DNA of 64,000 nt from Desulfobacterales bacterium. GTDB lineage: Bacteria; Desulfobacterota; Desulfobacteria; Desulfobacterales; JAHEIW01. The translations under genes were made by a program, and so were the position numbers. Shown here one piece after another: positions 22,759 to 46,449 of this stretch; the first letter of the stretch is position 1, and each line of letters opens with the position of its first letter. Location of the stretch: the NCBI GenBank assembly GCA_030066985.1, contig JASJAN010000001.1, positions 133,976 through 197,975 on the forward strand. Reading direction: 5' to 3'. Below the pieces are notes generated by a model. The model did not search any database, had not been told where the DNA came from, and saw only the letters and a list, made by a program, of their open reading frames with translations.

Positions 22759-22794
22759 GGTATCTCCTGATCCGGCTTGGCCGGAAAACAAGCC

Positions 22795-27601: not shown

Positions 27602-27654
27602 GATATGTAAACCCCTACTTATTTGATGTACGTACAATCATTTAGCAATATAAT

Positions 27655-27871: not shown

Positions 27872-29161
27872 TTATTTGTCACCACTCATTTTCGCCCATA
27901 GCATGCGGCCCATCTCCCGTGAATAGGCCAAGATTTCGTCTTCGGCCATCGTCAGCAGTTTTCTGTTTTCGATTATCAGCTTGCCGCCTGCAATTACGCT
28001 CTCCACGTGGCGGGCATCAATCCCATAGACAAAGTGCCCTAAAAAATTTCCGGCATTGATATCCGTGGGCGAATCATAATCTAAGATAACCAGATGATTG
28101 TCCCCGTCGCCGCTAAATCCGTTTTCCCGAATATAATCATGTACCTTTCGAAAGCGGTTGTAAACCGTGTCCATACCCAGGCCTTCGGTCGCCTGACCGG
28201 TTAAAAACGCAGCTTTGGCGCTGCGCAGCATATCGCTGTGCATGCCATCAGTTCCAAGGATGATGTTATCGCCCAGCTCCCGGTAATTGGTAACGCCCAC
28301 ATTGTTATTCAAGTTACTTTCGGTGTTCTGCACGACGTAAATACCGGAGTCGCGCAGCAGTTGTTTTTCCTTTTCGCTCAAATGGATGCAATGGGAAAAT
28401 ATCGATTTGGACAGCTCCAGCGCACCGGTGTCCGCATAACGCTCCACTACCCTTTTGTTGTATTGTTTTAAACAGGCATCCTGATCGACCGCATCCTCGG
28501 CAACATGCACATGCAGACCGGTATCATGCTTGTGGGCCAGATCGATGGCCCGTTTGAGCAAATCATCACCGACGGTAAAAGAGGCATGCAAGCCGACATG
28601 GCCCTGACGTCCAGAGCTTAGAAAGGAATCGGTTTCCTGCAGGCCTTTTTCTTTAGATCCCTCCCCGTCCCGGTCGGATATCTCATAACACAGCAAATGG
28701 GAAATGCCGATACGATCAAATGCCCTGGCGATGGTTTCCAGCGAATCATCGATGGCAAAAGGCGAGGCATGATGATCAATCACAAAGGTGGCCCCGTTTT
28801 TGGCGCAATACAATGCGGAGACCAGCGCACTGGCTTCGATCATATCCGTGTTAAGGGATTTATCCAGGTGCCACCATATATATTGCAGAATTTCCGAAAA
28901 ATTTTGGGGAATTTTCGCCGGTGCCGGCATCCCTCTGGCCAGAGCGGAATAGATATGATGATGAGCGCAACCAAATGCCCGGGTAACCAGCTGATGTCGA
29001 CAATCCAAAATCTGATCATCGGCGCCCAAGTCATCTGCTGACGGCAGCGCATCTATAAACTCGATACCGCCGTCATCACCAGGGGAAACCGCCAAATGAG
29101 TCGCGGTAAACGCCAGGGTCTTCCAATCGATATAGGTGGCATCCTTCAGGTATAGGGTCAT
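27872..29161 (-). CDS. ssnA: SsnA family amidohydrolase
   Basis: 429 residues, an aminohydrolase of the guanine-deaminase/SsnA branch. Metal-site elements are CAHHHIYSAL near residue 60, a second His in LHVHVAED (~205), SHCIHLS, and Asp in ILGTDGMHSD (~300). E. coli SsnA was named from a stationary-phase phenotype. In purine clusters it is thought to hydrolyse a purine ring product or act as a guanine- or imidazole-type deaminase. TAAGGAGA lies ahead of the ATG. It sits between ygeW and xdhD. The specific substrate is inference from context only. Confidence 0.9.
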   Translation of the reverse strand: MTLYLKDATYIDWKTLAFTATHLAVSPGDDGGIEFIDALPSADDLGADDQILDCRHQLVTRAFGCAHHHIYSALARGMPAPAKIPQNFSEILQYIWWHLDKSLNTDMIEASALVSALYCAKNGATFVIDHHASPFAIDDSLETIARAFDRIGISHLLCYEISDRDGEGSKEKGLQETDSFLSSGRQGHVGLHASFTVGDDLLKRAIDLAHKHDTGLHVHVAEDAVDQDACLKQYNKRVVERYADTGALELSKSIFSHCIHLSEKEKQLLRDSGIYVVQNTESNLNNNVGVTNYRELGDNIILGTDGMHSDMLRSAKAAFLTGQATEGLGMDTVYNRFRKVHDYIRENGFSGDGDNHLVILDYDSPTDINAGNFLGHFVYGIDARHVESVIAGGKLIIENRKLLTMAEDEILAYSREMGRMLWAKMSGDK

Positions 29162-29495: not shown

Positions 29496-32060
29496 CTATA
29501 ATACTTTTTGCCGCTTATTGATCGGAAGTTGATAGCGCGGCACCCCATCATAGCGAAACAATGCATTGGCAACAGCACCGGCCGTGGGGATGTTGCCAAT
29601 CTCCCCTATCCCTTTGGCACCGTAAGGGCCCAGCGGATCTTTGACTTCTACCTTCTTGACCTCAATGCGCGGTACCTGTTTGATGCGCGGAAGACCCAGC
29701 TTGCCGTAACGTTTTATTTTCAGCTGCCCTTCCTCCATGGGCAGTTCCTCGCTAAGCGCATAACCAAGCCCCATGACGACCGCCCCTTCAATTTGGCTTT
29801 CAAACAGGATCGGGTTGATGATTTTCCCTCCGTCATGGGCCGCGATGACCCGGTCCACCTGTCCGGATTCGTCCAAGATCACCAGATGGGTGGCATAACC
29901 ATAAGAATAATGGGTCAGCACTTCTCCCGGTTCATCGAGCGGGGTGGTCCAATCACAAACCCAGCGGCCAGTATATACCTTGCCCTTTAATTGCGCCAGG
30001 CTCTTGGAGGTTAAATCCTTTTTAAGATCACTTGCTGCGCTGATGATGGCATGTCCCATTTGAAAGGTTGCACGGCTGGCGGTAGTCATGCCGGCCCGTG
30101 CTTTGGACTCGGTGTTGACGCTGACTTCAACACAATCCGGATTATCGATTCCGATTTCTTCGCACAGAATCTGCTGGGCGACGGTATCCACCCCCTGGCC
30201 CATTTCGGTCCAGCCGTGCTGTAATAGGATGCGATTTTCAGGTTGAATTTCAATTTTAACGTCACATTCTTCAAGGACGCCGTTGCCGATGCCGCAGTTT
30301 TTGATGCCACAGGCCAGCCCCGCTGTTTTGGCCGCGTAAAATTCGTCTTTGACCGTCAGCAGAGTCTCTTTCAAACCGACGCCTTCACCCAGAATCTGCC
30401 CGGTGGCCGTGGCTTTGCCGGTTTCAAGCACATTATCATACCGGAACTGCCAGGGGTCAAACCCGCCTTTAACACACAGCTTTTCAATACAGCCTTCCAT
30501 GGCAAAGGTGACCTGATTAACCCCGAAGCCCCGCATGGCGCCGCAGGGGATATTGTTGGTATAAACCGCTTTGGATTCAATATCGACATTCGGAACGTAA
30601 TAAGCTCCGGTGGCGTGACCGGCAGCCCTTTCCAGCACTTCACCCCCCAATGATGCATAAGCGCCGGTATCTCCTAAAATGCGCGCGGACAAGCCGGTCA
30701 GCTTACCGTGTTCATCACACCCCAGGGTGTACTGCATGTAAAAGGGATGTCGCTTGGGATGCATGCGAATGGATTCTGAGCGGCTTAAGCTGACCTTGAC
30801 CGGTTGATTGAGCAGGTAACTGAAAACAGCCGCATGACCCTGAACGGTCAAATCTTCTTTGCCGCCAAATCCCCCGCCAGTGGGAACCAGTTTAACGCTG
30901 ACCTTATCGCTGGCAACACCGAGGATGCGGGCGATCTGCCGCTGGTCTTCATATACACCCTGGCTTTGAACATAAAGTTCAATCCCGTCCCGTCCCATGG
31001 GCAATGCAATCGCGACCTCAGTTTCCAAAAAGCCGTGCTCCACCCGCTGGGTCTGATAAGTCGCTTCGACCACATGGGCTGATGCCTTAAAAACCGAATC
31101 AATATCATCGCCGCGTTGAATATGGGATACACTCAGCAGGTTGCCGGACTCATGGACGTTAACGGGGCTGTTTTCAGCACGATGCACATCTGTCAACGGC
31201 TCTTGGACATCATATTCCACATCGATCGCAGCAGCAGCCCGGCGGGCAGTATCTTCGTCTTGGGCCACCACGCCGGCCAGGACATCTCCGATGTAGCGCG
31301 TAGACTCACCGGCTGCAATCATCACGGGCCAATCCTGGTGAATCACGCCGATGGTGCGTTCACCGGGAATATCATTGGCCGTAAAAACCCGCACGACACC
31401 CTGTATGTTTTCTGCTGCGGCAACGTCAATCCGGCGGACTTGCGTCCGGGGATGGTCGCTGAATTTGAGGGCCCCATGCAGCATGCCATCAATGCGCATA
31501 TCATCAATAAACGCGCTGCGGCCAACTGCTTTGTCATAGGCATCGTATTTGGGCTGAGATGTGCCCACCTTGCCGCTAGCGGTAAGTTGAATCTCCTGAT
31601 TATTGCGCAAATGCTCGGCCGCCAGTTCGATGGCATCGACAATTTTGATATAACCGGTACAGCGACACAGGTTAAATCGAAGGGCTTTAATAATTTCCTG
31701 GCGGCTGGGTTGGGGGTTGTTTTCCAAAAGTATTTTGGAGCGCGATAAAAAGCCAGGTGTGCAAAAACCGCACTGCACCGCTCCTTGGGCCACAAATGCC
31801 CGCCCGAGTGTTTGGCGCAGGCTTGCCGGAAAACCTTCAATGGTGACGATGCTGGCACCATCCAGTTTGCGCATGGGGGTTACACAGGATAACGCCGGCT
31901 TGGCATCCACCTCGACCAAGCAAGCACCGCAGGTTGCTTCCCCACTGCAACCATTTTTAACCGAAACAATGCCGGCCGTCTCTCTTAGATAATTTAACAA
32001 TGACCGCTTGTGGTCACCGTCATAGGATATGTCCACGCCGTTTAATGTAAATTTTATCAT
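29496..32060 (-). CDS. xdhD: XdhD-type molybdenum hydroxylase with fused 2Fe-2S domain
   Basis: 854 residues joining a two-cluster 2Fe-2S domain to a Mo-pterin domain, without an FAD domain. Cluster ligands are Cys38, Cys44, Cys47 and Cys59, then Cys97, Cys100, Cys132 and Cys134 (QCGFCTPGF ... CRCTGY). The Mo part has VPTGGGFGGKEDLTVQ, CGAMRGFGVNQVTFAME, GWTEMGQGVDTVAQ and GPYGAKGIGEIGNIP. E. coli XdhD belongs to the selenium-dependent Mo hydroxylases, where a labile selenium is a cofactor ligand rather than an encoded selenocysteine. No in-frame TGA was found, consistent with that. The missing FAD subunit suggests electrons go to YgfK. The ribosome site is weak. Confidence 0.92.
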   Translation of the reverse strand: MIKFTLNGVDISYDGDHKRSLLNYLRETAGIVSVKNGCSGEATCGACLVEVDAKPALSCVTPMRKLDGASIVTIEGFPASLRQTLGRAFVAQGAVQCGFCTPGFLSRSKILLENNPQPSRQEIIKALRFNLCRCTGYIKIVDAIELAAEHLRNNQEIQLTASGKVGTSQPKYDAYDKAVGRSAFIDDMRIDGMLHGALKFSDHPRTQVRRIDVAAAENIQGVVRVFTANDIPGERTIGVIHQDWPVMIAAGESTRYIGDVLAGVVAQDEDTARRAAAAIDVEYDVQEPLTDVHRAENSPVNVHESGNLLSVSHIQRGDDIDSVFKASAHVVEATYQTQRVEHGFLETEVAIALPMGRDGIELYVQSQGVYEDQRQIARILGVASDKVSVKLVPTGGGFGGKEDLTVQGHAAVFSYLLNQPVKVSLSRSESIRMHPKRHPFYMQYTLGCDEHGKLTGLSARILGDTGAYASLGGEVLERAAGHATGAYYVPNVDIESKAVYTNNIPCGAMRGFGVNQVTFAMEGCIEKLCVKGGFDPWQFRYDNVLETGKATATGQILGEGVGLKETLLTVKDEFYAAKTAGLACGIKNCGIGNGVLEECDVKIEIQPENRILLQHGWTEMGQGVDTVAQQILCEEIGIDNPDCVEVSVNTESKARAGMTTASRATFQMGHAIISAASDLKKDLTSKSLAQLKGKVYTGRWVCDWTTPLDEPGEVLTHYSYGYATHLVILDESGQVDRVIAAHDGGKIINPILFESQIEGAVVMGLGYALSEELPMEEGQLKIKRYGKLGLPRIKQVPRIEVKKVEVKDPLGPYGAKGIGEIGNIPTAGAVANALFRYDGVPRYQLPINKRQKVL

Positions 32061-32298: not shown

Positions 32299-33246
32299 TC
32301 AAATTATACGCGTACCGGCTTCTCCTTCTATGGCCGCCTTCAAGAGGTGCGGGCTGGTAATGATCGCGCTCTCACCACCGTGCTCGAGGAAATCCAGCGC
32401 AGCTTTAATTTTGGGCAGCATACTGCCGGCGGCAAAATGGCCTTCGGCCATCAAACGTTTGGTCTCCTCTGCACTTATGGCGTCCAAGGCCTTTTGGTCA
32501 GCTGTTCCATAATTTAAAAAAACATTGTCAACGGCCGTTGATATCAACAGAATGTCGGCATTTAAGCGGGTGGCCAGCAAACTGGAGGCATAGTCTTTGT
32601 CGACAACGGCATCACGGCCTTCAAACGTGCCATCGTCAAGGCGGACGACCGGTATGCCACCACCGCCAATGGCAATAACGCAAAACCCTTGATTGACTAA
32701 AGTTTCAATCGCATCCAGCTCAATGATGCGGACAGGCATCGGGGAAGGCACCGCTCGCCGGTAACCGCGTCCGGCATCGCGGATGACCGCCCATTCCGGA
32801 TGATCTTTTTGCAGGTTTTTAATCTGCAGTTCGTTGTAAGAAGAACCAATGGGCTTGTCTGGATCAGCGAATGAAGGATCATACGGATCAACTTCGACCC
32901 GCGTAACGACTGTCACGGCCATCTGGTTCAAGCGGCGCTTGTTGAACTCATTTTCAAGTGCCTGCTGGATCTGGTAGCCCAGGGCGCCCTGGGTGTCGGC
33001 CACACAGCTTGCCAGGGGCACAAAATGCAGCCCTTCATGCATGTAGGCAATTTCCGATCGTCGTAGAATAAAGCCTACCTGAGGGCCATTCCCATGGCTG
33101 ATGATCGTTCGGTAACCGCCTTCGATAAGATCAACAATCGGGCGGGCGGTTTCACAGATGGCGGCATATTGATCCTCGACACGCTGATAACGGGGATCCT
33201 TTATCAAAGAATTGCCGCCGATAGCGATGACAAGCAATTTGGGCAT
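32299..33246 (-). CDS. yqeA: Carbamate kinase (ArcC/YqeA type)
   Basis: About 315 residues from the ATG at 33246, with GGTGGG just upstream; an in-frame GTG lies nine bases earlier. Amino-acid-kinase fold motifs are VIAIGGNSLI, ISHGNGPQVG, IAIGGGGIPVV, VDKDYASSLLA and FAAGSMLPKIKAAL. It converts carbamoyl phosphate and ADP to ATP, CO2 and ammonia. Standing between xdhD and ygeY, and downstream in pathway terms of the YgeW carbamoyltransferase, it is the likely energy-recovering step of purine fermentation in the cytosol. The symbol follows the E. coli paralogue in the same type of locus. Confidence 0.93.
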   Translation of the reverse strand: MPKLLVIAIGGNSLIKDPRYQRVEDQYAAICETARPIVDLIEGGYRTIISHGNGPQVGFILRRSEIAYMHEGLHFVPLASCVADTQGALGYQIQQALENEFNKRRLNQMAVTVVTRVEVDPYDPSFADPDKPIGSSYNELQIKNLQKDHPEWAVIRDAGRGYRRAVPSPMPVRIIELDAIETLVNQGFCVIAIGGGGIPVVRLDDGTFEGRDAVVDKDYASSLLATRLNADILLISTAVDNVFLNYGTADQKALDAISAEETKRLMAEGHFAAGSMLPKIKAALDFLEHGGESAIITSPHLLKAAIEGEAGTRII

Positions 33247-33290
33247 GGTTCCCACCTTGCTGAAATATTTCTATTCATCCAAGCAATACA

Positions 33291-34505
33291 CTAATTTCTG
33301 GTAATAAGATCAATATACATTGCCGGTATGACAGCATACATGGCTGCGGCCTGAACCAGCTCGCTTTTCCAGGTCTTCTCGTTAGGTGCGTGAGCCTGAT
33401 CTTCATGTCCCGGCCCAAAACCGATACAGGGAATATCAGACATCCCGGTGATGGCCACCCCGTTGGTTGAAAATGTCCATTTATCCACCACCGGGTCTTT
33501 TCCAAAAAGGTTTTGATAGCCGGCCACCAGCGTCTGACAGGCCGGATGTTTTTCTTCCAGAGTCCAGGCCGGAAAATAGGAATCCGTTGCATAGACCAGA
33601 CCGGTATACGATGGCCGGTCATAGGTATACATCTCCACCCGGGCACCGCTTTTTCTGACAGCTGGCAATTCCCGAATTTCCTGCAATGCCAATTCGCTGG
33701 TTTCACCGGTAGTCAAGCGTCGATCGATGGAGATCCAGCAGCCGTCGGCAACCGCACAGCGTGAGGGCGAACTGGAAAAAATTTCTGAAACCGTCAGCGA
33801 CCCCTTGCCTAAAAAATCGTCTTCCCGTAAACGACCGTTTAACACCTGAAGCTCATTGAGAATCGGCGCCATTTTGAATATGGCATTATCGCCCCTTTCA
33901 GGTGCCGAGCCATGACAGCTGACCCCGCTGGTCGACACTTTGATCTCCATCCGACCGCGCTGGCCTCTGTAGATCCGACAGGAGGTGGGTTCAGTAGAAA
34001 CAACGAAATCGGGCCGGATGTTGCTTTCATTGATGATATATTGCCAGCAGAGGCCGTCGCAGTCTTCTTCCTGAACCGTTCCGCTCAGCAACAGTGTATA
34101 GTCATCTTGCAGATCCAGATCTTTGATGATTTTGCCGGCATAGACCATAGCGGCCATACCGCCTTCCTGGTCGCTGGCGCCGCGCCCCACGATGATCTCA
34201 TCATCTTCATACCCCTGATAGGGATCAACATCCCACTGTTCGGGATCACCGACACCCACTGTGTCCACATGGGCGTCCATTGCAACCAGATGCCGTCCGT
34301 TTCCGATATACCCCAAGACATTTCCCATGGGGTCGATATCCACCCGGTCGAATCCAACTGCTTCCATTTCCTGCTTGATGCGCTGGATGACCTTTTCTTC
34401 CTGACGGCTTTCGCTGGGAATGGCAATCATATCGCGCAAGAATTTTGAGATCTCGGGCTTATATTTGTTGGCACGATTCAAAACTGCTTTAAAATCAATG
34501 TTCAT
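33291..34505 (-). CDS. ygeY: YgeY-type M20 family amidohydrolase/peptidase
   Basis: 404 residues, di-zinc M20 family. Metal and catalytic motifs are MDAHVDTVG (~76), [13 protein letters not shown] (~110), TVQEEDCDG (~145), [15 protein letters not shown], and near the end [16 protein letters not shown] dimerisation insert lies between. In selenium-linked and purine loci it is the hydrolase of the YgeXYW set, proposed to open a ureido or amide product before the amino acid lyase. AGAGGA precedes the ATG. It is separated from the carbamate kinase by only ~45 bases, so those two are probably co-transcribed. The substrate is inferred from the locus. Confidence 0.92.
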
Positions 34506-34877: not shown

Positions 34878-36347
34878 CTATAGCTTATCGAGTAGTCCGG
34901 TTTTGGAATTGAACTCCTCGATCAGGGCATCGATTTGATCCGCATTGGTAGGGATACTGTTCCAGTAATCATCATCATACCATTGCTGCTGGATCTCTTC
35001 GTAGGTTTTACCCTGCTGCTCAACCCAGGTATAATACTTGAGATTGTGGATGCGTTTCCGCCCGTAGTATGTCAGTTCCTCCATGTTGTCGATGGTCAGC
35101 CCCTCAATATGGCGGGCATAAACAGCAGCCGCATCGCTATCGCTAAACTTGCCGCGTTCCTGGTTGAGCTCGACCAGCCGGCTGGCGTACATCTCCATCG
35201 AATCGGTCAGCACCGTCATGACAATATCCTGATCCCCCAGTTCATAATAGCGCGCGAATTTAATGGCTGTCACCAAATTGCCGATGCAGGATATGCCCAG
35301 CAGGTCAAGCATTTCAAGCAGCTCCGCAGGAACGCCTTTGGCCGCCAGATATTTTTTGCCGGCCGGCTCGTTAAACAGACGCATCAGGCTGATGGGAATT
35401 TCGTCGTCAACGGCCACGACCATGTCCAGATTTTTGACATTGTGAATCCAGGGCACATGCTTGTCACCGATGCCCTCGATGCGGTGTTCGCCAAACCCGT
35501 TGCGTAGCAACGTTGGGCACTGCAGCGCCTCACTGGCCACAATTTTACTGGCCGGAAACTGCTTTTTGAGAAAATCGCCACAGGCGATCGTGCCGGCCGA
35601 GCCGGTAGCTGACATAAAGCCGCAAAATTTATCTTTAGGGCCCATGATGCGTTTGAGGACTTTCAGCACCGCTGGCCCGGTGATTTCATGATGCCAGAGA
35701 TAATTGCCAAATTCGTCAAACTGATTAAAAATCGTCAGATCCTGTCCGGATTGCCGCAGCTCCCAGCACTTGTCAAAAATTTCTTTAACATTGCTTTCGC
35801 TGCCCGGGGTTTTAATGATTTCCCCGGAAACCGATGCGAGCCAGTCAAAGCGTTCCCGGCTCATCCCCTCCGGCAGGATGGCAATGGATTCGCAGCCCAG
35901 CAAAGTGGAATCGTATGCCCCGCCGCGGCAGTAATTACCCGTCGACGGCCATACGGCTTTCTGGACAGCAGGGTCGAACTGACCGGTTACCAAACGCGGT
36001 ACCAGGCAGCCAAAGGCGGCTCCCACCTTATGCGCGCCGGTAGGAAACCATTTACCGACAATTGCCACGATGCGCGCCTCGACACCGGTGATTGCCTTGG
36101 GGAATTCAATGAAATTCACATCGCCAAATCCGCCGCCTTGAGGCACCGGCTCATTGTGCCACGTGATCCGAAAGAGGTTTAAGGGATCGATGTCCCACAG
36201 CCCGATATTTTTCAGCCGGGCGACGATGGCCTCGGGTATGCGGCCGGGATCTTGCTGCTGCTTGAATGTGGGAATGATGATCTTTTTTTCTTTGGCCCTT
36301 TGAACGGCGCTTTCAAGCCCTTCGGGAACAATGGTCAAATCAATCAC
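34878..36347 (-). CDS. PLP-dependent fold-type II enzyme of unknown specificity (stands at the ygeX position)
   Basis: 489 residues, tryptophan-synthase-beta-like fold. The predicted PLP Lys is Lys107 in FPTGAHKVGAAFG. STGNYCRGGAYDSTLLG (~134) resembles the substrate loop, and SATGSAGTIACGDFLKK (~250) the phosphate loop. It is ~90 residues longer than diaminopropionate ammonia-lyase (YgeX) and lacks that family's visible motifs. Its place beside ygeY suggests it replaces YgeX in degrading the amino acid product, for example 2,3-diaminopropionate to pyruvate and ammonia. This is inference only. The start is GTG at 36347 with GAGGAG upstream. Annotated homologues are usually named only as a PLP-dependent enzyme or cysteine-synthase-like protein. 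Confidence 0.75.
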   Translation of the reverse strand: MIDLTIVPEGLESAVQRAKEKKIIIPTFKQQQDPGRIPEAIVARLKNIGLWDIDPLNLFRITWHNEPVPQGGGFGDVNFIEFPKAITGVEARIVAIVGKWFPTGAHKVGAAFGCLVPRLVTGQFDPAVQKAVWPSTGNYCRGGAYDSTLLGCESIAILPEGMSRERFDWLASVSGEIIKTPGSESNVKEIFDKCWELRQSGQDLTIFNQFDEFGNYLWHHEITGPAVLKVLKRIMGPKDKFCGFMSATGSAGTIACGDFLKKQFPASKIVASEALQCPTLLRNGFGEHRIEGIGDKHVPWIHNVKNLDMVVAVDDEIPISLMRLFNEPAGKKYLAAKGVPAELLEMLDLLGISCIGNLVTAIKFARYYELGDQDIVMTVLTDSMEMYASRLVELNQERGKFSDSDAAAVYARHIEGLTIDNMEELTYYGRKRIHNLKYYTWVEQQGKTYEEIQQQWYDDDYWNSIPTNADQIDALIEEFNSKTGLLDKL

Positions 36348-36365
36348 GGTACAATCTCCTCAAGT

Positions 36366-36496
36366 AAGAGGTTTCAAGTGTTCCGCCTGAGGCGGATTCA
36401 GGTGTCAGCAAAGGGATGACAGAGTGCAGGATCTGGTGATTTCGAAAGTCATGAGGTTCGCAATCCTGACACCTGACACCCGAAACCTGACACCTA
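36366..36496. repeat. GACACCTGA word-repeat hairpin
   Basis: AAGAGGTTTCAAGTGTTCC, the palindrome TCCGCCTGAGGCGGA (36382-36396) and TTCAGGTGTCAGC (36397-36409) form the left side. CTGACACCTGACACC and CGAAACCTGACACC (36468-36495) form the right. It lies between the two PLP enzyme genes and starts shortly after the stop of the upstream gene on the minus strand. Confidence 0.65.
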
Positions 36497-36504
36497 TTTT
36501 ATAT

Positions 36505-37761
36505 TTACCATGTGGCAACTACCTGCTTGAGAGCATCAAGATCCGGCTCGACATGAACCGGCTGGGTCCCAACTTGCTCAACCGCCTGCATGGCGCCGGC
36601 GACATCTTTTAAACCATTGCCGGTGTTTAAAACGACGATGGAATCATCGCTGGACACCAGCTGCCGATCAACCGCTTTGACAAGGCCGGCGTAAGCGGCT
36701 GCGCCGGCTGGCTCGGCAAAAACGCCTGTTTTGCGGGCCAATTCGGGTATGGCGGCAAGTATGTCGTCATCCTCAACACAGATAAAGGCGCCTTCAGAAT
36801 CATTGACGGCGACCAGGGCCTTGATGCGGTCCCGCGGCAATCCCGCGCTGATACTGTCTGCCACGGTATGGGCATCGATGGGTGATTTGGTGAGAATATC
36901 TTCCTTATTTTTCCAGGCGGTGTACAAATAGTTACTGCCGGCAGCCTGCACCCCCATTAATTTAGGCATCTTATCGATCCAGCCCAGAGCTTGCAGGTCT
37001 TTGAGGCCCTTGTGCAAGCCCCCGATGATACATCCATCCCCCACGCTCACAAAGATGCAGTCGGGTGCCCGCCAGTCCAATTGCTCACAAATTTCATAAG
37101 CGGCTGTTTTTTTGCCTTCGGTCATGTAAGGATTGAACCCGGAATTGCGATTGTACCAGCCATATTTCCGCGTGGCCTGCAGACACAGCTCAAACGCATC
37201 ATCGTAAGTTCCTTTGACCAGAAAGACGTGCGAGCCAAATACCAGCAGTTGGGCGATTTTGGCCTGCGGGGCGGTTTCCGGAACAAAGATCACATTGGCC
37301 TGCTGCATGCTGGCGCACAAACCGCTTAAAGCAGCGGCGGCATTTCCGGTGCTGGCCGTGGTAATGAGCCGGGCGCCTTTTTCTTTGGCTTTCACCACGG
37401 CAATGGCGCTGGCGCGGTCTTTAAAGGAGGCGGTGGGTTGGCGTCCGTCGTCTTTGACCCAGACGTTCTTCAGACCCAGGTCTGTCGACAGGCGTTGCGC
37501 CGGATACAAAGGCGTCCAGCCGATTGAAAGGCCCGGGACATCAATGCGCGCGTCAACGGGCAGCAGCAGCCGATAGCGCCAGATGGAAAGATCATCGGAC
37601 TGCAGCAGAGATTCTTTGCTCAACTGCCGGCTGATCACATCGTAATCGTAAACCACATCCAGAACGCCCTCGTCTCCATGATCCGGGCAGACGTAGTCGA
37701 CGTCTTCAGGCCGATAGAGCTTACCGCAAACCAGACATTTCAAACCGTGTATGTGCTGCAA
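36505..37761 (-). CDS. Threonine synthase-like PLP enzyme with N-terminal zinc-ribbon segment
   Basis: 418 residues. PLP Lys114 lies in PTASFKDRASAIAV, the phosphate-binding loop is TTASTGNAAAALSG, and VLNTGNGLKD is near the end, all as in threonine synthase. An N-terminal segment with Cys9, Cys12 and Cys25 (CLVCGKLY ... CPDH) looks like a zinc-ribbon remnant common in this family. No threonine-biosynthesis genes are near. As the first gene of the minus-strand purine locus it may act on phosphohomoserine or serve as an amino acid lyase with the adjacent PLP enzyme. The start is a TTG with AAGGAG eight bases upstream. The name reflects the fold, not a proven activity. Confidence 0.8.
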   Translation of the reverse strand: MQHIHGLKCLVCGKLYRPEDVDYVCPDHGDEGVLDVVYDYDVISRQLSKESLLQSDDLSIWRYRLLLPVDARIDVPGLSIGWTPLYPAQRLSTDLGLKNVWVKDDGRQPTASFKDRASAIAVVKAKEKGARLITTASTGNAAAALSGLCASMQQANVIFVPETAPQAKIAQLLVFGSHVFLVKGTYDDAFELCLQATRKYGWYNRNSGFNPYMTEGKKTAAYEICEQLDWRAPDCIFVSVGDGCIIGGLHKGLKDLQALGWIDKMPKLMGVQAAGSNYLYTAWKNKEDILTKSPIDAHTVADSISAGLPRDRIKALVAVNDSEGAFICVEDDDILAAIPELARKTGVFAEPAGAAAYAGLVKAVDRQLVSSDDSIVVLNTGNGLKDVAGAMQAVEQVGTQPVHVEPDLDALKQVVATW

Positions 37762-38310: not shown

Positions 38311-39414
38311 ATGAAAAGAAATAAATTTTTTATAGCACTGGTGGTTTTCGTCGCATTTACCTGGGGTTTATTCGGCGGTGGGGCACCGGGACCGGCGAAA
38401 GCGGACGCTGCGGAAGCCTTGAAAGCGGCATTTATTTATGTCGGTCCCATTGGAGATCTCGGCTGGAGCTGGGAGCACGATACGGGCAGAAAAATGCTGG
38501 AGAAAGAATTTGGCGACAAAGTCAAGACCACTTATATCGAAAGCGTGCCCGAGGGGCCGGATGCGGCCCGGGTCATTCGGCAGTATGCCATGCAGGGCTA
38601 TAATGTCATTTTCGCAACCTCATTCGGGTACATGGACCCCATGCTGGAGGTTGCAGGGGATTTTCCCAAGGTTTATTTCGAGCACTGCTCGGGATTTAAA
38701 ACCGCTCCCAATATGAGCACTTACTTTGGCCGCATGTATCAACCGCGCTATCTCTCAGGAATTGTGGCTGGAAAAGCGACCAAAACCAACATTATCGGTT
38801 ATGCAGCGGCTTTTCCCATTCCAGAGGTGATTCGGGGCATCAACGCCTTTACCCTGGGTGTTCGTTCGGTTAATCCCAAAGCTCAGGTCAGGGTGGTGTG
38901 GACCAATACCTGGCTTGATCCGGTCAAGGAAAGAGAAGCGGCTATTGCGCTGCTGGACGCCGGTGCAGACGTCATTGCCCAACATCAGGACACCACCGAG
39001 CCGCAGAAGGCCGCCAAAGAAAGGGGCTTAGTAAGCATTGGCTACGACTCGGATATGCGCGCGTTTGTCGGTGACAGCGTCCTGGTCAGCCCGGTCTGGA
39101 ACTGGGGGTCCTATTATGTCGCCACCGTCAAAGCCATTATGGACGGCTCATGGAAAACGCACCAGTACTGGGGCGGGTTGAAAGACGGCATGGTCAAACT
39201 GTCGGATTTTAGCCCCAGAGTGCCGCAGGATGTCAAAGACCTGGTGACTGCCAAGCAAAAACAGATGATAGACGGAACCTGGGATGTCTTCTGGGGTCCG
39301 ATTAAGGATCAAAACGGAAAGGAAGTGGTTCCGGCCGGTGGCAAGATGAGCGACCCGGATATGCTCAATATGAGCTATTTTGTTGAGGGGGTTGTCGGCA
39401 AAGCCGGCCAGTAA
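38311..39414 (+). CDS. BMP family ABC transporter substrate-binding protein (nucleoside/purine type)
   Basis: 367 residues. An N-terminal signal peptide (KRNKFFIALVVFVAFTWGLFGGGAPGPAKA) is probably cut after AKA; no lipobox Cys is visible, so the protein is periplasmic rather than lipid-anchored. The mature part has the BMP/PnrA fold: YVGPIGDLGWSWEHDTGRKMLEKEFGD, QGYNVIFATSFGYMDP, YLSGIVAGKATKTNIIGY, and ADVIAQHQDTTEPQKAA. This family binds nucleosides, nucleobases or related purines. AAAGGAGG precedes the ATG. The ATPase and two permeases follow in order. Next to xanthine dehydrogenase genes the ligand is probably a purine or urate. Confidence 0.9.
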   Translation: MKRNKFFIALVVFVAFTWGLFGGGAPGPAKADAAEALKAAFIYVGPIGDLGWSWEHDTGRKMLEKEFGDKVKTTYIESVPEGPDAARVIRQYAMQGYNVIFATSFGYMDPMLEVAGDFPKVYFEHCSGFKTAPNMSTYFGRMYQPRYLSGIVAGKATKTNIIGYAAAFPIPEVIRGINAFTLGVRSVNPKAQVRVVWTNTWLDPVKEREAAIALLDAGADVIAQHQDTTEPQKAAKERGLVSIGYDSDMRAFVGDSVLVSPVWNWGSYYVATVKAIMDGSWKTHQYWGGLKDGMVKLSDFSPRVPQDVKDLVTAKQKQMIDGTWDVFWGPIKDQNGKEVVPAGGKMSDPDMLNMSYFVEGVVGKAGQ

Positions 39415-39416
39415 AA

Positions 39417-39603
39417 GTGAATTTTAAAGCCCATCTAATCCCCGATGGCTGCGTTATCCAGGATAAATGGATTACACATCTATTTTATGAAAATAAAGGT
39501 GTGCATTAAGCCGGTTCGAAATGCTCGAATACTACATGTATGCTCCACTTTCGAACCGGCTTACGCCTTGCCCTCGGGGATAATCTGGGGCTTTAAAATC
39601 CAC
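39417..39603 (+). repeat. Type II stop-codon-abutting structured element, copy D
   Basis: In the 388-base gap after the BMP gene, starting two bases after its stop codon. Outer arms are GTGAATTTTAAAGCCC (39417-39432) / 39588-39603, continued by ATCCCCGA / TCGGGGAT. The central 14-bp stem AAGCCGGTTCGAAA (39508-39521) pairs perfectly with 39549-39562 and encloses TGCTC ... TGTATGCTCCAC. ACGCCTTGC follows at 39563-39571. The same loop and trailing ACGCCTTGC occur, with a different stem, at 57577-57732 on the opposite strand. The rest of the gap to 39802 is T-rich with nothing identifiable. Confidence 0.75.
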
Positions 39604-39802
39604 TTTTTAACATTTAATTTATTTAAAATCGCGCCGTGCCATTAGGCGTAATCTAAAGTTTTAAAACCACTTTTAAAGTTTCGTTTTTCTTTAAAAAACT
39701 TTTTAATCTGCTTTGCGGCCCACGCCCGCCATGCGAGCAAGGCGAGGCGGGCAGGTTTGCGTGAGGCTATCTTTTAAGCAAACACCGGATCATCCTAAAG
39801 CC

Positions 39803-41338
39803 ATGTCAGACGAAACCAAAACGCCCATTCTGGAGATGAAGGGGATCACCAAACGGTTCCCCAATGTGGTCGCCAACGAAGATGTGGATGTGGAGCTTTA
39901 TCCGGGTGAGGTTCTGGCCCTGCTGGGTGAAAACGGTGCGGGCAAGAGTACCCTGATGAATGTCCTGGCCGGCATGTACCGGGCGGATGAGGGCGAGGTC
40001 TTTATCCGGGGCAAACGCGTCGAGATTGATTCGCCGCGAGATGCCATGCGGCTCGGCATCGGAATGGTCCACCAGAACTTTATGCTGGTGGACACCATGA
40101 CGGTGGCGGAAAATATCATCCTGGGATTACCCGACCTGCCGTTTGTCCCGGATATGGCAGATATCCGTGGCCGCATCCGGCAGCTTTCTGAACGCTACAA
40201 TCTTCAGGTCGATCCGGACAGTCGCATCTGGCAGTTGAGCGTCGGCGAGCAGCAGCGGGTTGAAATTTTAAAGCTCATTTACCGCGGCGCTGAAATCCTG
40301 ATACTGGATGAACCCACCGCCGTCTTAACCCCCCAGGAATCCAAAGAGCTCAACGGTATTCTGCAGCAGATGACCGGTGAAGGCAAATCCGCCATCTTCA
40401 TCACCCATAAAATGGAGGAGGTCATTGCGTTCTCCGACTGGGTGAGGGTGCTCAACAAAGGCCGCCTGGTCACCGTTAAACAAACTGGCAAAACCAATCC
40501 CCAGGAGCTGGCCCGCTTGATGGTCGGTCGGGACGTGCTCTTTCAGCTTGAAAAAAAGGAGCGCGAGCTGGGAGAAGTTGCCCTTGAATTAGCAGATGTC
40601 AGTGCAAACGACGACAAGGGGATGGCGGCCTTGAGCGAAATCTCTCTTAAGATACATTGCGGTGAAATCCTGGGTGTTGCCGGCGTGGCCGGAAACGGCC
40701 AGAAACAGCTGGTTGAAATTCTCACCGGTCTGCGCAATGTCAGCAGTGGAACCATCCGCATCTTTAATGAAGACAAAACCAACAAATCACCGCTGGATAT
40801 CATCAATTCCGGCGTCAGTCACATCCCGGCGGACCGGATCGCCAGAGGCGTTGCCGGTGATATGAGTGTGGCCAACAATCTGGCCATGAAATGCTATCGC
40901 AAGCCCCCACTGGTAAAAAAGGGCCTTCTGCACCCTGCCCGCATACTCGATCTGGCAAGCCGTATGATTGATCTGTTTCGCATTGATACCCCCACCCCGC
41001 ATACCCACGCCAAGTTTTTGTCCGGGGGCAATATCCAAAAAACCATTTTAGCCCGCGAAATCGATGCCTGTCGTGGGCTGCTGGTGGCCGCTTACCCGGC
41101 CCGGGGTCTGGATGTGGGTGCCACTGAATTTGTGCGCAAACAGATGATCGAGCAAAGCGAGGCGGGTACCGCTGTTTTGCTGGTATCGGAAGACCTCGAG
41201 GAACTGGTGACCGTAGCGGATCGAATTGCGGTGTTGTTCGAAGGCAAAATTATGGGAATTCTGCCCTCCAGCAAGGCTGACACCGAAACATTGGGAATGA
41301 TGATGGCCGGTGTGACATTAGAGGAGATAACAGCTTGA
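39803..41338 (+). CDS. BMP-type ABC importer ATP-binding protein (tandem nucleotide-binding domains)
   Basis: About 511 residues from the ATG at 39803; frame upstream from a TTG at 39713 lacks family sequence. There are two nucleotide-binding domains, as in RbsA/YufO-type ATPases. NBD1 has GENGAGKST (~40), signature LSVGEQQRVEI and Walker B LILDEPTAVLTPQE. NBD2 has LGVAGVAGNGQKQLVEIL in place of a full P-loop, signature LSGGNIQKTILARE, and a Walker B region LLVAAYPARGLDVG lacking DEP. NBD2 is therefore probably regulatory, which is usual for the family. It powers the permeases encoded directly after it. The ribosome site is weak. Confidence 0.92.
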   Translation: MSDETKTPILEMKGITKRFPNVVANEDVDVELYPGEVLALLGENGAGKSTLMNVLAGMYRADEGEVFIRGKRVEIDSPRDAMRLGIGMVHQNFMLVDTMTVAENIILGLPDLPFVPDMADIRGRIRQLSERYNLQVDPDSRIWQLSVGEQQRVEILKLIYRGAEILILDEPTAVLTPQESKELNGILQQMTGEGKSAIFITHKMEEVIAFSDWVRVLNKGRLVTVKQTGKTNPQELARLMVGRDVLFQLEKKERELGEVALELADVSANDDKGMAALSEISLKIHCGEILGVAGVAGNGQKQLVEILTGLRNVSSGTIRIFNEDKTNKSPLDIINSGVSHIPADRIARGVAGDMSVANNLAMKCYRKPPLVKKGLLHPARILDLASRMIDLFRIDTPTPHTHAKFLSGGNIQKTILAREIDACRGLLVAAYPARGLDVGATEFVRKQMIEQSEAGTAVLLVSEDLEELVTVADRIAVLFEGKIMGILPSSKADTETLGMMMAGVTLEEITA

Positions 41339-41365
41339 TCTGGGCTTAATCGAATTGGAGACGAA

Positions 41366-42451
41366 TTGATGCGGTTTGTTTTCGAAAAACGAAAAACACT
41401 TTCTCGCAAAGCCATCTTCCTGGTTCCACTGGCGTCTTTTTTTATCTCGCTTATCTTAACCGCCATCTTGCTGGCCATCTTCAAAACCAATCCGTTTGTG
41501 ACCTTTATTGCCATGTTTAAGGGCGCTTTCGGATCATGGCCGAATTTCACCGAAACTCTGGTAAAAGCCACACCGCTGATGCTGGCCGGTCTGGGCATAT
41601 TGATCGCTTTCCGTTTAAAATTCTGGAATATCGGCGCCGAAGGCCAGCTGACCTTTGGCGGCATTGCGGCGACCTGGGTGGCGCTGTTTTGGTCCCCTTT
41701 TCTGCCATCCTGGATGGTTTTGCCGCTGGCCATCCTGGTGGGCATGCTGGCGGGGGCTTTCTGGGCCGGCATTCCCGCCCTGCTCAAAGTGCGCTTAAAG
41801 GTGGATGAAGTGCTGACCACCTTGATGCTCAATTACGTGGCGATTCTTTTTGCAGAACATCTCTATTACGGACCATGGCGCGACCCCAAAGGCTTCGGCT
41901 TCCCCGGCACACCACAGTTCCCGGATTTTACCTGGCTGCCGAGGATTGCCGGACGCGCCCATCTGGGGCTGATATTTGCGCTGGCCCTGGCATTGGTGCT
42001 CTGGTTTGTGCTCAACCGCACCCGCTGGGGTTTTGAACTCAAGGTCATCGGTAATAATCCTGGCGCTGCCCAGACCCAGGGCATTAAAATCGCTAAAAAT
42101 ATCATGATTGCTTTACTGCTGGCCGGTGCCCTGGCCGGGCTGGCCGGGGTCTGTGAGGTTACCGGGATTTCGCGCAGATTGCAGCAAGGCCTTTCCATCG
42201 GCTATGGGTATACGGCGATCATTGTCGCCTGGCTGGCACAACTTAATCCCATCGCAGCCATATTTGTGGCCCTATTAATCGCTGCCCTTCTGGTCGGCGG
42301 CGACCAGGTTCAAATGATGATGGGATTACCGGCCGCCATGGGCCTCGTATTGCAAGGCATGCTGCTTTTTCCCATGCTGGCGGGCTCCCTGTTTACCGAA
42401 TATAAATTACGTATCATCAAACCCAAAACAAGGGAGGCCCAATCTGGATGA
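41366..42451 (+). CDS. BMP-type ABC importer permease subunit 1
   Basis: 361 residues with about eight to ten membrane spans (FLVPLASFFISLILTAILLAIF, LMLAGLGILIAFRLKFWNIGAEGQLTFGG, FIALLIAALL-type segments). LAFRLKFWNIGAEGQ is the BPD_transp_2 family signature near residue 90. GGAGACG precedes the ATG and the gene begins 28 bases after the ATPase, so they are co-transcribed. It forms the channel with the next permease for uptake of a nucleoside or purine bound by the BMP protein. Confidence 0.9.
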   Translation: MMRFVFEKRKTLSRKAIFLVPLASFFISLILTAILLAIFKTNPFVTFIAMFKGAFGSWPNFTETLVKATPLMLAGLGILIAFRLKFWNIGAEGQLTFGGIAATWVALFWSPFLPSWMVLPLAILVGMLAGAFWAGIPALLKVRLKVDEVLTTLMLNYVAILFAEHLYYGPWRDPKGFGFPGTPQFPDFTWLPRIAGRAHLGLIFALALALVLWFVLNRTRWGFELKVIGNNPGAAQTQGIKIAKNIMIALLLAGALAGLAGVCEVTGISRRLQQGLSIGYGYTAIIVAWLAQLNPIAAIFVALLIAALLVGGDQVQMMMGLPAAMGLVLQGMLLFPMLAGSLFTEYKLRIIKPKTREAQSG

Positions 42452-42600
42452 TATCAGAAGACAGAGGTCAGACGACAGAAGTCAGATTGAAATAATGGAT
42501 ATTGAAACGCTTCATCTGTCCTCTGTTTTCTGTCCTCTGTTATCTGTTCGCTGACACCTGAATCCGCCTCAGGCGGAACACCTGAAACCATTGGTAGTAA
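42452..42600. repeat. ACAGAGGTCAGACG word-repeat hairpin inside the importer operon
   Basis: It begins at the stop codon of the first permease. GAAGACAGAGGTCAGACGAC and AGAAGTCAGA (42458-42486) face CATCTGTCCTCTG and TTTTCTGTCCTCTGTTATCTG (42510-42546). The palindrome TCCGCCTCAGGCGGA at 42563-42577 and CACCTGAAACC follow. The words are the same as in the hairpin at 13161-13260, 29 kb away. Confidence 0.65.
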
Positions 42601-42604
42601 GAAT

Positions 42605-43558
42605 ATGATCGAACTGGTAACATCTTTAATGGCCATCACCCTGCGCTCCGGGACGTCTCTGATGTATGCCACCGTCGGAGAAATTTATACCGAACGCTCG
42701 GGGATTCTCAACTTAGGCGTTGAAGGCACAATGCTTATGAGTGCGGTGACCTCGTTTGCCACCGTTTATCATACCGGCAGCCTGTTTTTGGGAATTCTGG
42801 TGGCCATGCTGGTGGGTGGGGCCATGTCCAGCATTCATGCATTTTTATCGATTACCATGCGGGCCAACCAGGTGGTCAGTGGTTTGAGCATCACCCTCTT
42901 CGGTTCCGGGATGGCCAGTTTTTTAGGGCAGCGGCTGGGCCCGGAATCAAACAGAGGCTATCTGGTGGGGCTGGTAGGCCCCAAATTTGAACCCTTTGCT
43001 ATACCGCTTTTAAGCGATTTGCCGATCATCGGCGCCGTCTTCAATCAAGATGTGATGACCTATATTGTTTATCTCCTGCTGCCAGCCGGCTGGTACTACC
43101 TTTACAAAACCAGTAATGGCTTGAATTTGCGGGCGGTGGGCGAGAACCCGCAAACCGCCGATGCCATGGGAATCAATATTGCACGGACGCGCTACCTGTA
43201 TACCATCCTTGGCGGCATGCTGGTGGGTATTGGCGGCGCCCATCTGTCACTGTCCTACGCCCCGGGGTGGACCGAAAACATTACCGGCGGCAGAGGCTGG
43301 ATCGTCATCGCTCTGGTGATCTTTTCGATGTGGAATCCGGCCAGGGCGGTCTGGGGCGCCATCCTTTTCGGCGGCATCAATGCCGTACAGTTCCGCCTGC
43401 AGGCATCGGGAACAAACATTCCGGCCGCCTTTTTAAATATGATGCCGTACCTGGCCACCGTTTTGGTGCTCGTCGTTTTAACCTGGTGGGAAGCATTGAG
43501 CAAACGCGTGGGCGCGCCCAGTGCGTTGGCCAAGTCCTACATGCGGGAAGATAAATAG
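42605..43558 (+). CDS. BMP-type ABC importer permease subunit 2
   Basis: 317 residues, a second BPD_transp_2 permease: LRSGTSLMYATVGEIYTERSGILNLGVEGTMLMSAV (the family's GEI-ERSGxLNLGxEG signature, ~20-50), VSGLSITLFGSGMASFLGQRLG, LRAVGENPQTADAMGINIARTRY, GGRGWIVIALVIFSMWNP. It pairs with the previous permease; such importers normally use two different ones. The ribosome site is poor (TAAGAAT), and the gene is separated from its partner by a 150-base hairpin. Confidence 0.9.
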   Translation: MIELVTSLMAITLRSGTSLMYATVGEIYTERSGILNLGVEGTMLMSAVTSFATVYHTGSLFLGILVAMLVGGAMSSIHAFLSITMRANQVVSGLSITLFGSGMASFLGQRLGPESNRGYLVGLVGPKFEPFAIPLLSDLPIIGAVFNQDVMTYIVYLLLPAGWYYLYKTSNGLNLRAVGENPQTADAMGINIARTRYLYTILGGMLVGIGGAHLSLSYAPGWTENITGGRGWIVIALVIFSMWNPARAVWGAILFGGINAVQFRLQASGTNIPAAFLNMMPYLATVLVLVVLTWWEALSKRVGAPSALAKSYMREDK

Positions 43559-43733: not shown

Positions 43734-44228
43734 ATGCAAGCGACTCAAACGCGTTACACGAAGACATTCCCCATATCCTGGGAACAGCTGCATCGGGATT
43801 CCAAGGCGTTGGCCTGGCGTCTGGTGGATATGCAGGCCTGGAAAGGCATCGTTACCATTACCCGGGGCGGTCTGGTGCCGGCGTCCATCATTGCGCGCGA
43901 GTTGGAAATTCGCCTGGTGGATACCGTCTGTGTTTCCAGTTACGATGGTCGCGATCAGGGCTCAAGCTCGATATTAAAATCGGTGGATATCGACAGCGAG
44001 GACTGGCTGCTGGTGGATGATCTGGTGGATACCGGCCAGACGGCCCGTCTGGTCCGGGAGATGATGCCCAAAGCGCACTTTGCCACCGTCTACGCCAAGC
44101 CCGAGGGGCGGCCGCTGGTTGACACCTTTATCACCGAGGTCAGCCAGGATACCTGGATTTTGTTTCCTTGGGATACCGAATCCCAATTTGTACAGCCCAT
44201 CGTGGATATCAAACAGGACCAGCCATAA
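43734..44228 (+). CDS. gpt: Xanthine(-guanine) phosphoribosyltransferase
   Basis: 164 residues, close to E. coli Gpt. The PRPP-binding motif is [17 protein letters not shown] (~88-105). The N-terminal [29 protein letters not shown] matches the family, and the C-terminal [11 protein letters not shown] is the base-contacting segment in Gpt. It joins xanthine, guanine or hypoxanthine to PRPP for nucleotide salvage. GAGAGG precedes the ATG. Ending the importer gene set, it lets incoming purine be salvaged as well as oxidised. I saw no purine riboswitch upstream. Confidence 0.93.
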
Positions 44229-45693: not shown

Positions 45694-46449
45694 TCAAGTA
45701 TTGTCTCGTTTAATTTTAAAACGCCAGGCACAATACCAATCATCCGGGTGCTTATCGGGCGGGCAGGCAATGCATTCGGTGGAGATGCGCTGATCGATGC
45801 TGCGCGCAAAATAGGTATATTCGACCATCCCGCCTGATTTGCAGGGATAATCATCCAGTCCTTTTCTCTTGCGTGCGTTTTGCACCCGGCATTCATTCAT
45901 CTGAAAAACAATACTGCCGTCATCTTCGTCGATAATGCTTTGTTCGTTGATGCGTGCATACACCCTGAAATTGAGCGCCTTTTTCAAACCATCCAGCCCG
46001 GGCGCCTCGGGCAGTTCCAGGAAATTTTTAATCGATTGGGCTTCGAACGGTGAAAAATGGGCCCAGCAGGTGTCGTTACAGCGCTTGGCATCATCCATAC
46101 CGCTGCTAAACTCCACTGCCTGAAACCAGACCCCGTCATTGGCCAGCCAGTTGACGGCCACCTGGTCCATCAGTTGCTGAAGCGAAGCTTTTGACATGTT
46201 CAGTAACGGCTCCGGCACACCGTCTTTCATTTCAAATCCGATAAATTTGGCCAGCCGACTTAGCTGAATGCCGATACTTCTTTCCGAGGCGGTCTTCAAG
46301 ATATCCAGCGCGCGCTCCATGCCCATCTGATGCCGCACTTCGGTGAACCACAGGGCATAATGAATCATAATGCGATGGAACATATCCATCACCAGTCGCG
46401 CGGTATCCTCCTGACTCAACTCATCGATGCTTCCCACATTTTCATTCAT
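45694..46449 (-). CDS. DUF6125-like cysteine-rich cytosolic protein
   Basis: 251 residues. The N-terminal half is helical (DTARLVMDMFHRIMIHYALWFTEVRHQMG). The C-terminal half carries conserved-looking Cys: NECRVQNARKRKGLDDYPCKSGG and ECIACPPDKHPDDWYCAWRF. The pattern matches DUF6125/amino-thiazoline-hydrolase-like proteins that I have seen beside acyl-CoA and HMG-CoA-lyase genes in deltaproteobacteria, but the family call is from memory. TAGGAGAA precedes the ATG. It is followed upstream by the type I repeat and the HMG-CoA-lyase-like gene on the same strand. Confidence 0.6.
   Translation of the reverse strand: MNENVGSIDELSQEDTARLVMDMFHRIMIHYALWFTEVRHQMGMERALDILKTASERSIGIQLSRLAKFIGFEMKDGVPEPLLNMSKASLQQLMDQVAVNWLANDGVWFQAVEFSSGMDDAKRCNDTCWAHFSPFEAQSIKNFLELPEAPGLDGLKKALNFRVYARINEQSIIDEDDGSIVFQMNECRVQNARKRKGLDDYPCKSGGMVEYTYFARSIDQRISTECIACPPDKHPDDWYCAWRFKIKRDNT

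Follow-up and report, generated by a model that had tools for sequence, protein, structure and literature searches.

A threonine-synthase paralogue as a candidate replacement for YgeX at the end of reductive urate gene clusters

Background

The reductive urate pathway, which was published in 2025 with its last step given to YgeX (PMC12507026), leads through the reduction of urate to yanthine, steps involving YgfK and SsnA, a hydantoinase and two ureido cleavages to 2,3-diaminopropionate, which YgeX then cleaves (PMC12507026, PMC12990295). The two diaminopropionate isomers are said to be cleaved equally well by YgeX (PMC12507026), and the stereochemistry of the pathway is called open in a commentary (PMC12990295). 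Here we describe a gene cluster of this kind within a 64,000-nucleotide stretch of DNA (termed here the window, meaning the whole stretch analysed) from a Desulfobacterales bacterium, in which YgeX is lacking and two other pyridoxal 5'-phosphate (PLP) enzymes, of 418 and 489 residues (termed here PLP418 and PLP489), lie next to the genes for ureido cleavage.

The pathway itself is known; what is new is a variant of its last step. In a published survey of SsnA neighbourhoods YgeX was coloured on the basis of the general domain PF00291 (Figure 3 legend), and a replacement of YgeX by other PALP enzymes would therefore not have shown; the main text of that paper contains no word beginning 'archae' (PMC12507026). 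Among the titles and abstract beginnings searched, a set outside which subscription papers and preprints mostly fall, there was no report of such a YgeX replacement or of an archaeal reductive urate pathway.

The evidence tips slightly in favour of PLP418, a derivative of threonine synthase, being a diaminopropionate ammonia-lyase that is non-orthologous to YgeX. PLP418 is the better candidate of the two for that role, and PLP489 would be an accessory PLP lyase that is often, though not always, linked to the pathway. We infer the reactions of both enzymes from what is observed, that is, from the genes themselves, the lack of a YgeX above cut-off, the predicted folds, the loss of a conserved residue and the gene neighbourhoods.

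Results and discussion

A reductive urate cluster with no YgeX above cut-off

Apart from its unusual last step, the cluster in the window is an ordinary one of the reductive urate type. It forms a run of nine co-directional genes, separated by intergenic gaps of 35-372 bp, in the following order:

36505-37761, minus strand: PLP418, 418 residues, threonine-synthase fold, N-terminal cysteine motif (C9, C12, C25), Lys114
34878-36347, minus strand: PLP489, 489 residues, CysK/CBS-like fold-type II PLP enzyme, Lys107
33291-34505, minus strand: ygeY (TIGR03526, 685 bits, cut-off 321.5)
32299-33255, minus strand: carbamate kinase, arcC (NF009007, 436 bits, cut-off 266)
29496-32060, minus strand: selenium-dependent xanthine dehydrogenase-type protein, Se-XDH (TIGR03311, 910 bits, cut-off 830)
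27872-29161, minus strand: SsnA homologue (top models are SsnA, with scores under their cut-offs)
26402-27637, minus strand: ygeW, knotted carbamoyltransferase (TIGR03316, 697 bits, cut-off 500)
23014-26289, minus strand: ygfK (TIGR03315, 954 bits, cut-off 835)
21343-22791, minus strand: NCS2-type xanthine permease, pbuX (TIGR03173, 452 bits, cut-off 414)

The set by which a reductive urate cluster is recognised, that is, homologues of YgfK, YgeW, YgeY and SsnA together with a xanthine dehydrogenase (XDH), is thus complete, SsnA alone scoring under cut-off. Both genes that a sequence-only reading of this DNA had picked out, for a 489-residue fold-type II PLP enzyme with Lys107 and for a threonine-synthase-like one with Lys114, are indeed there; their open reading frames are free of internal stops and their products match the Pfam domain PALP above its gathering score. 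The same reading set the pair in the place of YgeX beside ygeY and ygeW, which is right for ygeY, directly upstream of which the pair lies, but not for ygeW, which is the fifth gene after PLP489; in E. coli, for comparison, ygeX is placed between ygeW and ygeY. With the pathway of E. coli and C. difficile (YgfK/UacX, SsnA, HyuA, YgeW/UacY, YgeY, YgeX) the run shares the upstream and ureido-cleaving families and purine transport; it differs in having PLP418 and PLP489 and no YgeX, and in that HyuA is not among its nine genes, a HyuA homologue (39% identity) being encoded on a separate contig, C24.

That YgeX is missing from the locus, as had been claimed, holds not only for the run: a TIGR01747 search of the whole host genome (5.07 Mb in 81 contigs, 97.8% complete) found no ygeX elsewhere above cut-off, the top score being 27.2 bits against 274. 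Like YgeX, the pair has the fold-type II PALP domain and is proposed to act last in the pathway, but PLP418 falls far under the TIGR01747 cut-off, at 19.4 bits, and scores 51.9 bits on a further test for YgeX, NF006058 (cut-off 276); PLP489 is not in the TIGR01747 match list. YgeX is not among the fold-search rows shown for either predicted model, which is uninformative on kinship. Further PALP genes are present in the host genome, as is a second threonine-synthase gene (ThrC).

PLP418 has lost a threonine-synthase arginine

PLP418 shares the fold of threonine synthases: its predicted structure (mean predicted local distance difference test score, pLDDT, 91.0) is matched best by these enzymes, with a Z score of 50.6 to 2c2b over 411 residues at 3.2 Å, and its sequence passes both threonine-synthase models, NF006050 with 306.7 bits (cut-off 303) and TIGR00260 with 198 bits (cut-off 167.1). 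Lys114, in the motif PTASFKDRASA, is invariant in 31 of 31 aligned relatives. The cysteate synthase CapA2 (9k3c) is likewise a fold match (Z 41.5, 369 residues, 2.8 Å), but PLP418 reaches 99 bits on TIGR03844, for which the cut-off is 324.9.

PLP418 differs from threonine synthase in a segment that in five solved, aligned threonine synthases reads NP.R.EGQKT or nearly so. Its arginine, Arg160 in the Thermus enzyme (1uim), we take to be the binder of the substrate phosphate. In PLP418 the equivalent residue is a methionine:

37123-37125, minus strand: codon of Met213 of PLP418, aligned to threonine-synthase Arg160 (Thermus numbering); position counted from the gene start at 37761

This column holds Met, Thr or Val in all 31 aligned rows, and GQKT is replaced by GKKT (GKKS in one row); haloarchaeal relatives, at 45% identity, have Gln in the column, followed by GKRT (4/4). 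Other threonine-synthase-family sequences from the same genomes, in contrast, carry Arg there in 13 of 14 cases, the host's second ThrC (a 527-codon open frame) included; this count took in only family matches having a locus, and four TIGR00260 loci (L188, L189, L190, L196) were excluded for want of a blastp match to PLP418. A tree of 50 sequences separates the 38 rows without the arginine from the 12 rows that have it, at a branch with support 100/99, although the bootstrap had not settled and one of the 38, the long-branched L203, is unsurely placed. Before the tree was made 11 rows were removed, namely the short, Arg-bearing L194 and ten of PLP418 type; nine of these ten are genes already in the relatives' alignment, the exception being L191 (from the genome of L052).

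Were PLP418 a plain threonine synthase that lies in the cluster by chance, its scores above both cut-offs and the identity of its nearest solved structures would be expected; that explanation is nevertheless extremely improbable, given that the Arg160 equivalent is gone in all PLP418 relatives examined and that the window genome has a separate, Arg-bearing ThrC-type gene. The role of the host's own threonine synthase was rejected for PLP418 on the latter ground. NF006050 and TIGR00260 accept PLP418 despite the loss of the arginine equivalent, which makes it likely that automatic annotation mislabels PLP418-type proteins as threonine synthase.

Haloarchaeal plasmid loci

A PLP418-like gene was found in 19 haloarchaeal plasmid records (14 with the gene annotated as thrC, 2 with no feature at a two-piece match, and 3 unannotated), of which 16 loci were read, three other Haloarcula records (H40, H43, H46) being left out. 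In 12 of the 16 (L178, L179, L181 and L210-L218) it occurs together with genes for an SsnA-like amidohydrolase, a hydantoinase/allantoinase-like protein, a luciferase-like monooxygenase (LLM)-class oxidoreductase and a D-aminoacylase; an M20 amidase accompanies these in 11 of the 12 and a molybdopterin XDH in 8. For the members scanned, SsnA and hydantoinase are the best matches, with scores under their cut-offs, the LLM protein matches PF00296 and the D-aminoacylase PF07969, which is the UacY domain, and the amidase scores above cut-off on TIGR01879. Some loci also have nucleobase symporter or BMP importer genes, adenine deaminase, npdG or CofG/CofH, the last of which (npdG or CofG/CofH) point to the use of F420. 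Among the incomplete loci, L219 and L221 have an M20 peptidase gene, and L220 a D-aminoacylase and an M20 amidase.

These are apparent reductive urate gene clusters, combining a luciferase-type reductase as reported for Chloroflexota with a UacY-type hydrolase as reported for C. difficile, in which the PLP418-like gene occupies the place of YgeX. In all 16 stretches read there was no match to PLP489 or YgeX at 1e-25. Conversely, when the haloarchaeal proteins were used as queries against the 80 best bacterial PLP489 loci (65-92% identity to PLP489) at 1e-20, SsnA gave 15 matches and the M20 amidase one (L016), and the LLM and D-aminoacylase proteins gave none; PLP418 and SsnA-type genes are thus common to the bacterial and archaeal clusters, but the LLM and D-aminoacylase genes are not.

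Chloroflexota loci

Chloroflexota were sampled by YgeY, that is, without selection through PLP489. YgeY is above cut-off in 33 of 251 genomes, in which 35 YgeY places were read; at the 22 of these that also have a YgeW-like gene, PLP418 (at least 42% identity) was found ten times, PLP489 twice and YgeX not at all. All Chloroflexota counts are lower bounds, as the stretches read were of unequal length, 15 of the 35 were extended by 15 kb, and some end before PLP418. They also depend on the identity bar: L274, with 31% PLP418 matches beside YgeY, was scored as being without PLP418, and 26-28% PLP489 matches beside PLP418 in L259 and L260 were not scored as PLP489.

Several features of individual loci may be mentioned in their own right. 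In L040 (3531-5640), as well as in L255, L256, L258, L279 and L280, two nearby carbamoyltransferase-type genes stand beside arcC, and in L040 PLP418 also adjoins the pair; both L040 carbamoyltransferases and one of L064, which were scanned, fall under every cut-off, that of YgeW included. Such pairs might possibly remove both ureido groups by phosphorolysis. In L038 and similar Chloroflexota loci, as read from open reading frame starts, PLP489 comes directly after an apparent sodium-pumping decarboxylase set and is followed by a conserved protein of about 190 residues, the L064 member of which (11468-12061) has no Pfam or NCBIfam match.

PLP489 and the division of labour between the two enzymes

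The nearest solved relatives of PLP489, by sequence and by fold, are CysK, CBS, β-cyanoalanine synthase and O-ureido-L-serine synthase; residues 28-411, approximately, of its predicted model (mean pLDDT 85.9) match that fold with Z scores of 27.0-29.8 over about 300 residues in the rows listed. Lys107, in the motif PTGAHKVG, is the same in all 29 aligned sequences and aligns under the SIKDR lysine of yeast CBS, which is presumably the PLP lysine of that enzyme. From the CysK/CBS group PLP489 differs in having TGAHK rather than SIKDR at the lysine and about 70-90 extra C-terminal residues, and it scores under every curated cut-off listed (among them TIGR01139, 87.5 against 350.95 bits; TIGR01136, 82.6 against 344.15; TIGR01137, 64.3 against 510.25). 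With YgeX it aligns, weakly, in the region of Asp120 alone, which in PLP489 holds Thr136. OrtB (2-amino-4-oxopentanoate thiolase) was considered as an identity for PLP489 and set aside, its model NF040741 not being among the six families matched (E 0.001); nor is that model among the best 25 of the 43 families matched by PLP418, and a haloarchaeal PLP418-like protein scores 67.7 bits on it against 550.

Of the 80 bacterial PLP489 loci, 54 have PLP418, 37 ArcC and 34 a YgeW-like gene; where at least 8 kb could be read on both sides, PLP418 is present in 29 of 38. The pairing of PLP418 with PLP489 is not due to chance. At the same time, 21 of the 80 loci, and 8 of the 38 long ones, have none of the tested genes. 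Four Desulfobacterota loci (L161-L164, from G215, G199, G222 and G026) have PLP489 and no PLP418 in the stretches read; in three of them an M20-type gene with at most 25% identity to ygeY lies near PLP489 (in L163 it is an ArgE/DapE-family deacylase), and in L163 and L164 so do genes read as tripartite ATP-independent periplasmic (TRAP) or tricarboxylate-type transporters. More distant homologues show similar company: on Rhizobium and Bosea plasmids, at 42-43% identity, they lie near M20 and TauE genes (in Bosea also RidA), and in G105 a 41-42% homologue stands between ygeY and a divergent threonine-synthase-like gene, with ygeW also beside them. PLP489 may be read as a β-eliminating lyase for one or more β-substituted alanines.

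Two alternatives turn on how these enzymes share their work. First, PLP489 could itself be the diaminopropionate lyase, with PLP418 cleaving, say, a different purine- or amino-acid-derived substrate. Consistent with this are the stronger conservation of PLP489 (76% mean column identity, as against 63% in the PLP418 alignment), the position of the 41% homologue in G105, and the membership of β-replacing and β-eliminating enzymes in its fold group; yet PLP489 has no match in any of the 16 haloarchaeal loci, occurs at just 2 of the 22 places in Chloroflexota that combine YgeY with a YgeW-like gene, and in 8 of its 38 long loci is without the tested genes, and we regard this alternative as quite unlikely.

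Second, the job might be split, PLP418 taking one enantiomer of diaminopropionate and PLP489 the other, or one racemising for the other. Both folds are known among amino-acid lyases, and PLP418 matches accompany PLP489 in 54 of 80 loci. That YgeX is described as equally active on the D- and L-isomers (PMC12507026) also favours such a split, for which the chance is appreciable if small; what speaks against it is that PLP418 occurs without PLP489 in the stretches of the 16 haloarchaeal loci and at nine Chloroflexota YgeY places, and PLP489 elsewhere without PLP418. The proposal that the pair is a non-orthologous replacement for YgeX thus stands mainly for PLP418, on the strength of 12 of 16 haloarchaeal loci and 10 of 22 Chloroflexota places; PLP489 is not simply half of the substitute, since it occurs without PLP418 and away from the tested genes.

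Co-occurrence with the pathway and with YgeX

YgeW is above cut-off in 8 of 395 Desulfobacterota genomes: four of these (G000, G105, G007, G237) have PLP489, as a 42% homologue in G105, and no YgeX; three (G050, G086, G241) have YgeX and no PLP489; G384 alone has both; and none has neither. Of the 297 genomes in which both were sought, 7 have YgeW and 8 have PLP489; the two overlap in four (hypergeometric p 7e-6) or, once the host genome and G237 (which belongs to the same genus as G007) are excluded, in two (p 0.003), kinship being ignored in both calculations. YgfK-bearing genomes divide into eight that have PLP489 without YgeX above cut-off and three that have YgeX without PLP489 (Fisher p 0.006); G012, which has a YgfK fragment, no YgeX above cut-off and no PLP489, was excluded. 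(At a loose threshold of 1e-100, YgfK appears in 112 of the 297 genomes, four of them above cut-off; of the rest listed, almost every one matches no more than the C-terminal part of the model, and from this search only the above-cut-off ones were used.) Seven PLP489 loci (L008, L010, L022, L031, L041, L062, L072) carry YgfK, as called by tblastn at 42-87% identity rather than by the model and in some cases cut by contig or locus ends, and in none of their seven genomes is YgeX above cut-off.

A number of observations weigh against the proposal that PLP418 replaces YgeX. Besides the passing of both threonine-synthase models, already noted, these concern residues, genomes and neighbourhoods. Asp120 and Asp189 of E. 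coli YgeX, which we take to be catalytic, are not kept in PLP418, where Thr138 and Asn206 align with them. L203, the lone exception among the 14 other family sequences, has Tyr at the Arg160 column and lies outside the PLP418 group. YgeX is above cut-off in 8 of the 79 genomes with PLP489, and a ninth, G299, has a YgeX fragment next to ygeY and arcC where a contig ends; in G323, G335 and G384 YgeX lies in a YgeW-type cluster and a PLP418-PLP489 pair lies separately (in G335 and G384 on the same contig, about 25 kb and 29 kb away), so that these three have no need of the pair to stand in for YgeX. At 24 of the 35 Chloroflexota YgeY places, and at 11 of the 22 with YgeW, PLP418, PLP489 and YgeX are all missing within reach; to the question, raised by the sequence-only reading, whether the pair always accompanies ygeY and ygeW where ygeX is absent, the answer is that it often does, though these 11 places show that it does not always. 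The haloarchaeal locus L180 has a PLP418 relative and no partner genes. Finally, absences rest for the most part on metagenome-assembled genomes.

Genomes that carry both YgeX and the pair also fit a further alternative, namely that neither enzyme acts on diaminopropionate, the pair instead serving a neighbouring route, of amino acids or of purine salvage, with diaminopropionate either deaminated by a generalist PALP enzyme encoded elsewhere or excreted. The additional PALP genes of the window genome, and the 8-oxoguanine deaminase gene that PLP489 adjoins in L045, would agree with this; that linkage to genes for YgeY, ArcC and YgeW-like proteins recurs across phyla, and that in haloarchaea PLP418 is linked to another set of ureido-cleaving genes, argues the other way and leaves it very unlikely.

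Two kinds of layout in these genomes are of separate interest. In L159 (G007) and L160 (G237), ygeY, ygeW, PLP418 and PLP489 follow in a row behind genes read as a TRAP transporter, with no match to ygfK or ssnA in the stretches read, an arrangement that suggests uptake of a ready-made ureido acid. In L045 (G323) the PLP418-PLP489 pair is preceded by BMP-type importer genes, some in two copies, and followed by the gene for the 8-oxoguanine deaminase (NF006055, 695 bits).

Proposed course of the pathway

With PLP418 as the candidate lyase, the pathway in the window's host would run as follows. Urate would be reduced by XDH and YgfK, the ring opened by SsnA and a hydantoinase encoded elsewhere, and the two ureido groups removed, by YgeW with carbamate kinase and by YgeY, to give 2,3-diaminopropionate; the final α,β-elimination to pyruvate and ammonia would then be carried out by PLP418, as a threonine-synthase paralogue, instead of YgeX. 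In this enzyme, with the putative phosphate-binding arginine lost and the PLP lysine kept, Lys114 would take the Cα proton and the β-amino group would leave from the quinonoid. Two canonical threonine synthases are stated to deaminate threonine in vitro, and a change to ammonia-lyase chemistry is therefore plausible (PMC12172450). The presence of a D-aminoacylase-type gene with PLP418 in haloarchaea makes it probable that PLP418 acts on the D isomer or on either isomer. PLP489 would be a second, CysK/CBS-like β-eliminating lyase, most likely acting on another isomer or on another β-substituted alanine arising from the ureido-cleaving steps.

Neighbouring genes

Upstream of the run, and divergent from it, lie importer genes and a gene for a phosphoribosyltransferase-domain protein:

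38311-43558, plus strand: importer genes, comprising a Bmp-domain substrate-binding protein (38311-39414, by Pfam) and, by sequence reading, an ATPase and two permeases
43734-44228, plus strand: phosphoribosyltransferase-domain protein (domain match)

Homologues of the importer genes are also found in PLP489 loci. Near the cluster, at 45694-46449, the window also encodes a DUF6125 protein (254.6 bits), a homologue of which lies near PLP489 in L008.

Conclusions

A broader proposition, which we hold tentatively and rate at rather less than an even chance, is that diaminopropionate ammonia-lyase has two or more separate origins, one giving YgeX and another giving PLP418, from a threonine synthase that lost its putative phosphate-binding arginine, the latter form serving the reductive urate pathway in Desulfobacterota, Chloroflexota and haloarchaea (where it would be of F420 type and plasmid-borne), with PLP489 as an additional bacterial lyase. 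If this is true, many proteins named threonine synthase are urate-pathway enzymes. If PLP418 is a diaminopropionate lyase, then the common annotation 'threonine synthase' is wrong for a recognisable subset of proteins, the stereochemistry of the pathway (PMC12990295) becomes open to probing with an enzyme of different ancestry, and the known range of the pathway reaches the Archaea.

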